A stretch of DNA of 54,979 bases from Opitutia bacterium (GTDB taxonomy: Bacteria; Verrucomicrobiota; Verrucomicrobiia; Opitutales; Coraliomargaritaceae), in contig JAQWIW010000024.1 in assembly GCA_029248665.1 (NCBI GenBank), positions 1 through 54,979 on the forward strand, read 5' to 3'. The position numbers and the translations under genes were made by a program. The notes under the pieces are model-generated. The model saw only the letters and a list, made by a program, of their open reading frames with translations. It did not search any database and had not been told where the DNA came from. Positions 11,548 through 13,742 of the stretch are shown piece after piece; within the stretch, counting starts at the first letter, position 1; the number at the start of each line of letters is the position of its first letter.

Positions 11548-11892
11548 TTAGCGCGCAATTATTGAGCCGTATTTTTCTGAATGCGCAGAAATCCCTTCAT
11601 CGCGATAAATTATTTCCGGATATACTTCGTCTTCTATAATTTCTAATTCGGAAATTACTTTTCTAGGTCCAATAAACTCATAAAGACTGACTGAATAAAA
11701 ATCATACTCTTCAAAATATTGATTGGCGGAAGAAAGAATCTGATTCAAGTTTGCTACGATCCTTTTTTTTTGGCTGCGCTCATTGTATTCTTGGAGAATT
11801 GGAAAAGTAATTATAAGCAATAAGAATAATGCGAAAATCGATAAAAAAAATTCGATTAAAGTGAAGCCGTACGTCTTTGCTTGAGACTGCAT
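11548..11892 (-). CDS. Type IV pilin-like / pseudopilin protein
   Basis: A 114-residue protein with a short basic leader, then GFTLIEFFLSIFALFLLL: a prepilin peptidase site (G before FTLIE, Glu at +5) followed by the hydrophobic assembly helix. The C-terminal domain of about 80 residues is not recognisable. Such proteins are processed by prepilin peptidase and built into pili or type II secretion pseudopili; Verrucomicrobiota carry many single copies of unknown use. It begins 26 bases after the stop of the 565-residue repeat/FGE-like gene and is probably co-transcribed with it. No secretion ATPase or platform gene is nearby. Confidence 0.78.
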   Translation of the reverse strand: MQSQAKTYGFTLIEFFLSIFALFLLLIITFPILQEYNERSQKKRIVANLNQILSSANQYFEEYDFYSVSLYEFIGPRKVISELEIIEDEVYPEIIYRDEGISAHSEKYGSIIAR

Positions 11893-11918: not shown

Positions 11919-13616
11919 TTATTCAACTACAAAGCGAAAGCCAATCAATCGACTTCTCTCATTGCGATTTGCCACCCTTAATGGCATCCCATAGATAGCC
12001 TCTAAACTATCACTAAAATGGCCTCCTATGTGTTTAACTGGCTCATTGTCAAAGACACCATCACTGTAAAGCCATTCGCTAACATTTCCCAATAAATCAT
12101 AAAACCCTTCCCCTAATGGATCCTTGCTTGCTATGTTTGTTAACTTTCCTCCGTCTACACTTGAAACAACAAAATTCTCTAGTTTAACAAAACGCAAGGA
12201 CCCTACTGCAGCACGAAATTCATATTCTTTTGGCAGGCGAATTTTTAAGCCCATGACCCAAGATAGACGCTTACAAAACATCTTCGCCTCTTCCCAATTA
12301 ACAGATTCAACAGGCTTCAGGTCTCCAATAAAGCGACTTGGATTATACCCTATAATTGTTGAATACAAAGCCTGTGAAACTTCTGTTTTCAACATTCTAA
12401 TGCCTGGTTCTCCAGGAACGGAGATTAAGTTTTCGTATATTCTATCCTGTACTAGCTCTAAGTTATTTCGAATAAAATTAAGGTATTTAATTTTTACGTT
12501 TGATACACTATCATTGTGAGAACTTTTAGGAAACTCTTCCTGCATTCTCAAAATAGCATCTGAAATTCTCAATATCTTACTTTTAGCTAATGATACTTTC
12601 CTTTGTCTTAAATCACGATCGATTTCAAAGTTTAAAGTATTAATTATCTCACCCAAATCATGACTTGCTGATGTTTGAGCTTTTCTCATTAGGTCATTCA
12701 TCCTATCAATAGAATTATAAGGACTATCTGCATACAATATGTTTAGTTTATCCTGTAATTGCCTTGCATCGTCATAGAAATTGGCAGCCTTAAGATTGTC
12801 ACCCTTTTCGACAAAAGATTCTGCTTTATTTTCTAAATCATCTATTTGTTGGTATAAAGGCGTGCTTAGATAAGTAATTTTTTTGAGCTCAAGCAAATTA
12901 AGTTTAGAGCCATCTGAAAGATCCGAGCTACGGTATTCAGAATTCAAATATAACTGCTTTTCAATGGCTTCTACTAATAGATCCGCCGCCTCGCTCCACT
13001 TTTCTTCATTATTCAGTGTCTCTATTTTCGCTTCCAAAAGGAGAATCTCATTATGAATTGGGTAGGCATTTAAAAAAGCCAACCTTCGTTTTAATTGAGC
13101 TATGCGATTGATATTATAAAAAGAACTTAAGGAGTAGGAATCATTTATCTTTGTTTGCAAGGCGATAGACTCTTTAATTGCCTCAATCGCATTTAGATAA
13201 TCGTCCTCATCAAATAATTCCTGACTCAACTCTTCTTTTACGATACTCAATTTATAAATATCTTCAGAGAGAACTTCGTCGTAACGTTGTTTAAGATAAT
13301 CTAAGCGCTGTTTAGCAGAATCACTATAGTAAGGCAGTTCTGCCACATAAGACTCTTGATACTCGATTGCTTCCAATAGCAATAGTGTATCGGCTTCAGT
13401 CATTTTTCTCAAAGAAATGATTTCTTCAAATTGCCCTTCGGATTCAAAACTTTTCAGTCGTAATGTTTCTACTGCTTCAGAAACTTCCGATGTTGCGGTG
13501 ATCGTTTTTTTTGAACTGTAATTAATTGTTTTAGGCCCTGAAATAAGTAAGAGCACAAATAGACCAATCAAAATGAAAGGTATTAAAATATAACAGATAA
13601 TTTTTACTAAAGACAT
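11919..13616 (-). CDS. Membrane-anchored protein with 67-residue helical repeats and a C-terminal FGE/SUMF1-like domain
   Basis: A 565-residue protein. Residues 5-26 form one membrane helix, so the rest should face the periplasm. Residues 73-400 hold four or five degenerate helical repeats, with a conserved Gln at 87, 154, 221 and 288 (spacing exactly 67) and a weaker copy at 359. Residues 405-565 resemble the formylglycine-generating-enzyme/C-type-lectin fold: PVESVNWEEAKMFCKRLS, RLPKEYEFRAA, GFYDLLGNVSEWLYSDG, GGHFSD and a closing GFRFV. The cysteines that catalyse formylglycine formation near the C-terminus are absent (NRNERSRLIGFRF), so a binding role is more likely than catalysis. It precedes a pseudopilin gene. 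The repeat is not one I can name. Confidence 0.75.
   Translation of the reverse strand: MSLVKIICYILIPFILIGLFVLLLISGPKTINYSSKKTITATSEVSEAVETLRLKSFESEGQFEEIISLRKMTEADTLLLLEAIEYQESYVAELPYYSDSAKQRLDYLKQRYDEVLSEDIYKLSIVKEELSQELFDEDDYLNAIEAIKESIALQTKINDSYSLSSFYNINRIAQLKRRLAFLNAYPIHNEILLLEAKIETLNNEEKWSEAADLLVEAIEKQLYLNSEYRSSDLSDGSKLNLLELKKITYLSTPLYQQIDDLENKAESFVEKGDNLKAANFYDDARQLQDKLNILYADSPYNSIDRMNDLMRKAQTSASHDLGEIINTLNFEIDRDLRQRKVSLAKSKILRISDAILRMQEEFPKSSHNDSVSNVKIKYLNFIRNNLELVQDRIYENLISVPGEPGIRMLKTEVSQALYSTIIGYNPSRFIGDLKPVESVNWEEAKMFCKRLSWVMGLKIRLPKEYEFRAAVGSLRFVKLENFVVSSVDGGKLTNIASKDPLGEGFYDLLGNVSEWLYSDGVFDNEPVKHIGGHFSDSLEAIYGMPLRVANRNERSRLIGFRFVVE
12417..13400 (-). repeat. Tandem 67-residue coding repeats (four regular copies plus one degenerate)
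   Basis: Within the FGE-like gene, units of about 201 bases encode the pattern (A/E)-x-Q-x-x-hydrophobic, then Y or aromatic, then S, then an N/D-x-(R/K)-hydrophobic turn and L-K/R. Anchors are Gln87, Gln154, Gln221 and Gln288, with serines near 98, 165, 231 and 298. Approximate units are residues 73-139, 140-206, 207-273 and 274-340, plus a shifted copy at 341-400 with Gln359. Nucleotide identity is not obvious, so the duplication is old. Confidence 0.6.
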
Positions 13617-13742
13617 AAACAGTATAACTTATTTTTATGTAAGGATCACAAACTAAATATATAATGATTTCATTCAAGTAAAAGAAATTAGAAAAAAATC
13701 ACTTATTGCGCTTCTTCAAAAGACCGTTTAACTATCTCAATT

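Follow-up and report, generated by a model that had tools for sequence, protein, structure and literature searches.

A predicted TPR-derived repeat of constant length between a putative membrane anchor and an FGE-fold head in a protein of Opitutales

The analysed window, a stretch of 54,979 nucleotides from an Opitutia bacterium (contig JAQWIW010000024.1, assembly GCA_029248665.1), encodes a 565-residue protein that raises the question of what kind of repeat lies between its N-terminal membrane helix and its C-terminal domain, and what such an arrangement may serve. Only the C-terminal FGE-sulfatase domain was recognised by Pfam, no family was named in the NCBIfam search of the protein, and a description of this Opitutales stalk protein was not found in the literature search. 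The features of the gene and their positions in the window are as follows:

11919–13616, minus strand: whole gene, 565 aa, with membrane anchor, five-unit repeat domain and FGE-fold head
13542–13610, minus strand: predicted N-terminal membrane helix, residues 3–25 (AlphaFold2 and charge balance)
13197–13397, minus strand: repeat unit 1, residues 74–140 (family profile self-comparison, alignment and AlphaFold2)
12996–13196, minus strand: repeat unit 2, residues 141–207 (same evidence as unit 1)
12795–12995, minus strand: repeat unit 3, residues 208–274 (same evidence as unit 1)
12594–12794, minus strand: repeat unit 4, residues 275–341 (same evidence as unit 1)
12429–12593, minus strand: repeat unit 5, residues 342–396, in register, diverged, ending at the head domain (same evidence as unit 1)
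11922–12407, minus strand: FGE-fold head domain, residues 404–565, without the FGE catalytic cysteine pair (Pfam, fold match and cysteine columns of the alignment)

A 67-residue repeat had been claimed in the original prediction from Gln87, Gln154, Gln221 and Gln288, which are spaced by exactly 67 residues, and self-comparison bears this claim out. For the window sequence alone, z scores of 5.7 and 5.8 were obtained at offsets 67 and 134 (maximum of 500 shuffles, 4.6), and the best ungapped self-matches scored 91 and 95, with shuffles reaching at most 51. In the comparison of the 54-member family profile with itself, the scores were 14.9 and 11.1 at the same offsets against a best shuffle of 4.2, and a single gap-free diagonal paired residues 74–300 with 141–367, so significant repeats are present in the self-alignment. 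Five units stand in register, starting at residues 74, 141, 208, 275 and 342. The fifth, formerly described as slightly shifted (Gln359), is in exact register instead: Ser365 corresponds to Ser298, Ile355 to Gln288, and Gln359 takes the position of Asn292. An aromatic residue is found at about +7 from the repeat Gln and a Ser at +10 (residues 164, 231, 298 and 365), or at +11 in unit 1. The period is 67 residues, and no 34-residue period appeared in the self-comparison of either the single sequence or the family profile. No tandem repeat was found in the gene at the DNA level, which points to an old protein repeat and not to a recent duplication.

Recurrent indels within units 2–5 are absent from the 54-member alignment, gaps in units 2–4 average 0.1–0.3% over 167 unique repeat regions, and the repeat region is free of any insertion in 115 of 169 orthologue sequences. 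A constant number and length of units throughout an order is unusual among repeat arrays. Judged from these alignments, the unchanging count and length would fit a part whose length matters.

The AlphaFold2 model built from the 54-member alignment has a mean pLDDT of 93.3, and the repeat domain alone reaches a pLDDT of 94.9 and a pTM of 0.75. Each unit is predicted to have two helices, of 21 and 35 residues in this order, connected by a loop of 8 residues and followed by a tight short turn; the long helix of unit 4 has a one-residue break. Every 67 residues are thus predicted to hold a short and a long helix, and ordinary in-register tetratricopeptide repeats (TPRs) were not seen. When a single-unit profile was compared with the PDB, the TPRs of OGT (E 4e-12) and DNAJC3 (E 1e-8) were matched, as were designed TPRs, and the match was confined to positions 8–42 of 71. 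A synthetic triple consensus of the unit gave three matches to TPR_2, one per unit, at 49.7 bits (cut-off 27), a score in which the consensus overstates the TPR signal. Among natural members, 16 of 30 matched TPR_12 (best E 3.7e-6) and 16 of 42 matched TPR_2; the window protein itself had no match to the Pfam TPR profiles.

These profile matches indicate one TPR hairpin per unit together with about 33 extra residues, the additions falling at the beginning of helix A and the end of helix B, and a unit containing such a hairpin makes the 67-residue repeat, at the level of sequence, a lengthened, TPR-derived variant. The original prediction could not place the repeat in any named family; this no longer holds, since each unit carries a TPR hairpin, but the canonical TPR is still excluded, given the 67-residue period without a 34-residue one and the helices of 21 and 35 residues. 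What is shared with the TPRs of TPR_2, TPR_12, OGT, DNAJC3 and the consensus designs is one helix-turn-helix per unit, equivalent to TPR positions 2–32, and small residues (A, G, A, A) at the helix crossings. In contrast, the unit of Opitutales has 67 residues instead of 34, an 8-residue loop and no Pro32, its helix A is about 20 residues longer and its helix B about 6 residues longer, and its successive units are probably staggered along the axis. A polar set of Gln, Asn and Ser at unit positions 14, 18 and 24 (window 12594–13397) recurs in nearly every unit near the loop between helices B and C, where it could cap the structure or form a ladder between units.

The explanation that we favour, with somewhat more confidence than doubt, is an inner-membrane-anchored periplasmic strut, in which a five-unit, TPR-derived staggered rod presents a non-catalytic FGE-fold docking head. 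The N-terminal helix would be held in the inner membrane and the rest of the protein would lie in the periplasm. Each unit would contribute a TPR hairpin (helix A, then B), the 8-residue loop and a helix C that continues without interruption into the following unit, where it serves as helix A; the chained three-helix bundles would build a staggered rod of constant length instead of a TPR superhelix. With about 20 residues or 30 Å per unit, the rod may be about 150 Å long in total, and the head that it carries would offer, at a defined spacing from the inner membrane, a docking surface for a protein or ligand.

The anchor of this proposed strut was already expected from the first reading, and an N-terminal membrane helix is now predicted by AlphaFold2 at residues 3–25; 160 of 167 members have a membrane-like stretch ahead of the repeats. 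The mean charge in the family is +3.4 before the helix and −0.5 after it; few positive charges precede the helix in the window protein taken alone. Because the charge balance across the family is positive on the N-terminal flank, an N-in orientation with a periplasmic remainder is suggested. The order of membrane helix, repeats and FGE-fold domain described earlier stands, and the stalk-like arrangement ascribed to it is plausible.

How the units pack against each other was approached by fold comparison and by covariation. With Foldseek, the repeat domain had no match at E < 1e-3 in the PDB or among viral proteins, and all VIA Z values for this domain were at most 10.5, within the noise for helical repeats. 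Single units, on the other side, align rigidly on three consecutive helices of 14-3-3 (64–66 residues at 2.3–2.4 Å), and the alignment runs contiguously from helix A through B and stops midway along the long helix. The top match of this second-look fold comparison was calpain-7, with its two MIT domains in tandem. The covariation analysis was a mean-field calculation on 167 sequences (118 effective) in which equivalent pairs were pooled; it recovered the A–B hairpin at z 6.0, with controls from non-neighbouring units at or below 2.0. Helix B covaried with the N-terminal half of the helix after it (sums of 42–50), and a parallel offset of 20–24 between successive long helices emerged in the pooled data, although two of the four junctions do not show it. 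The contact sums and this offset agree with each other and support a staggered rod. Because single-unit fold matches and pooled covariation lean in the same direction, three-helix bundles joined by continuous helices, forming a staggered rod, would be favoured over a TPR superhelix.

That the unusually long helices of the repeats instead wind into a TPR-like superhelix, with a peptide or partner bound in the concave groove and the FGE-fold head secondary, is rather unlikely in our estimation, and it is the strongest of the other explanations. It would account for the one TPR motif in each unit, for two entries of the TPR protein BamD that align over 114–116 residues at 4.5–4.6 Å, and for a weaker covariation signal at an offset of about −4, as expected of a lateral register with helices at equal height. 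However, TPR superhelices align only at an rmsd of about 17–23 Å over 116–185 residues, the contiguous superposition of single units on 14-3-3 follows the order A–B–C, and the staggered B–C contacts outscore the TPR-like contacts between B and the next A in all five units.

Spectrin-type repeats are three-helix units of about 106 residues that are joined by a continuous helix. If the units of Opitutales are likewise joined by a continuous helix, they would follow the same rod logic at 67 residues per unit instead of about 106, without a claim to membership; no spectrin family was among the significant matches or, more broadly, among the matches listed in the fold search, which does not by itself exclude spectrin.

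At the other end of the proposed rod, the FGE fold claimed for the C-terminus is upheld by the Pfam match of the window protein to FGE-sulfatase (PF03781; 37.6 bits, cut-off 23.3) and by the fold matches of residues 386–565 to TvpA (Z 23.1), CarF (22.5), PvdO (20.7), PorK (19.5) and FGE (17.9), with EgtB and OvoA also among the matches. The head is strongly conserved in the family, most of all at residues shared by FGE-fold proteins in general. Its sole conserved cysteine is C448, present in 52 of 54 members; no second conserved cysteine column exists, and 25 of the 54 proteins contain a single cysteine in all. FGE binds Cu(I) through two active-site cysteines that are needed for copper (PMC12123546). 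Going by the conserved residues, the head is without the FGE catalytic cysteine pair and not of the catalytic FGE type. In the type IX secretion system, PorK has an FGE fold without both catalytic cysteines and serves as a docking hub (PMC12421860), and by analogy the head is most likely a non-catalytic docking surface for a protein or ligand. The likeness to PorK/GldK, a periplasmic assembly protein with the FGE fold but without the two cysteines, is a works-like argument only: PorK is located at the outer membrane, has large insertions and lacks a repeat stalk, and the NCBIfam GldK equivalog scored 11.2 bits on the window protein, far below its cut-off of 350.

An enzymatic role, in which the head would carry out oxidation or C–S chemistry independent of the FGE cysteine pair, as PvdO-like proteins perhaps do, and would simply be positioned by the stalk, appears improbable. 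The strong conservation of the head and its strong fold match to FGE, PvdO, EgtB and OvoA speak for such chemistry; its top-conserved residues, however, are those of the FGE fold at large, only one cysteine is conserved, and Pfam detected nothing like the iron-binding domain of EgtB or OvoA as a partner domain. The head thus resembles FGE, PvdO, EgtB and TvpA in fold (Z 17–23) and differs from them in its lack of the FGE cysteine pair and of a second catalytic domain, and in its short length of about 160 residues. A derivation of the repeats not from TPRs but from tandem MIT-type domains, which would make them bacterial kin of an MIT family known from eukaryotes and archaea, is highly improbable: the unit is near MIT length and would share with calpain-7 and the 14-3-3 segment a three-helix A–B–C bundle of about 65–70 residues, the tandem-MIT calpain-7 is the top second-look match (Z 10.5), and one member has a weak Pfam MIT match (PF04212, E 0.022), but that Z lies within the helical noise, TPR profiles match far better, the consensus match (E 0.0078) is partial, below the cut-off and limited to the TPR-like profile positions 14–33, there is no significant sequence match, and helix C here is predicted to run unbroken into the next A along the array.

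With the strut as the preferred reading, a wider interpretation may tentatively be put forward, at a confidence well short of even: the array could be a distinct class of TPR-derived repeat with a continuous C/A helix, a spectrin-like periplasmic rod, and the protein an Opitutales-specific strut of fixed length that holds a repurposed FGE-fold docking head across the periplasm in an undescribed envelope assembly. If this were true, an axial rod would have arisen from the lateral superhelix of the TPR by the lengthening of one helix, an uncharacterised conserved envelope protein of Opitutales would gain a testable architecture, and the repurposed FGE fold would have a second setting beside PorK of the type IX secretion system.

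The protein is conserved within Opitutales and kept even at a genome size of 1.4 Mb. In the GTDB family of the window, 41 of 43 genomes encode it, with all nine genera represented; there is almost always a single full-length copy, and the copies are mostly 33–69% identical. The proposed profile search for the repeat in other proteins found it across the order, in 166 of 273 genomes; because the first search stage scored few candidates per genome, absence from any single genome is not firm. When the repeat-region profile was run against 387 genomes of the phylum, 44 genomes matched, all of the same order; no full-length repeat match lay outside Opitutales in this sample, only one weak partial match (E 7.5e-6). 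Weak class-level matches elsewhere in the phylum were mostly confined to the TPR part, and of three such loci examined, two matched over short TPR-like stretches alone and one not at all. In the genome contigs, the single protein as query found no relative, but the family alignment retrieved about 55 more distant ones, full or partial, from Coraliomargarita, Opitutus, Geminisphaera, Rariglobus and uncultured Opitutia. Within the order, no match was obtained in several complete genomes of family f2 (G051, G099, G119, G138 and others), which may reflect either true loss or limited search sensitivity. Some copies of the gene appear to be disrupted: that of Candidatus Synoicihabitans palmerolidicus falls into two reading frames, and in-frame stops interrupt it in two other genomes (G378 and G316), which could be decay or sequence error.

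The gene neighbourhood offers a conserved neighbour and no conserved operon partner. Across most of the order, the divergently transcribed tyrA (prephenate dehydrogenase), followed by aroA, is kept beside the gene, and the downstream genes vary; window positions 13617–13742 form the divergent promoter region common to the gene and tyrA. The tyrA–aroA neighbourhood looks like old synteny and yields no functional partner, and the docking role thus gains no support from the gene context. Directly downstream in the window, in the same direction, lies a small pilin-like gene with a GFTLIE motif (11548–11892, minus strand), and related pilin-like genes occupy this place in the genus of the window and in some relatives of the same family. 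A pilin operon partner was dropped as a candidate, since distant members have other downstream genes, namely, with names assigned by eye, a small ORF and a PIN/TRAM-like gene, or an EVE-like gene.
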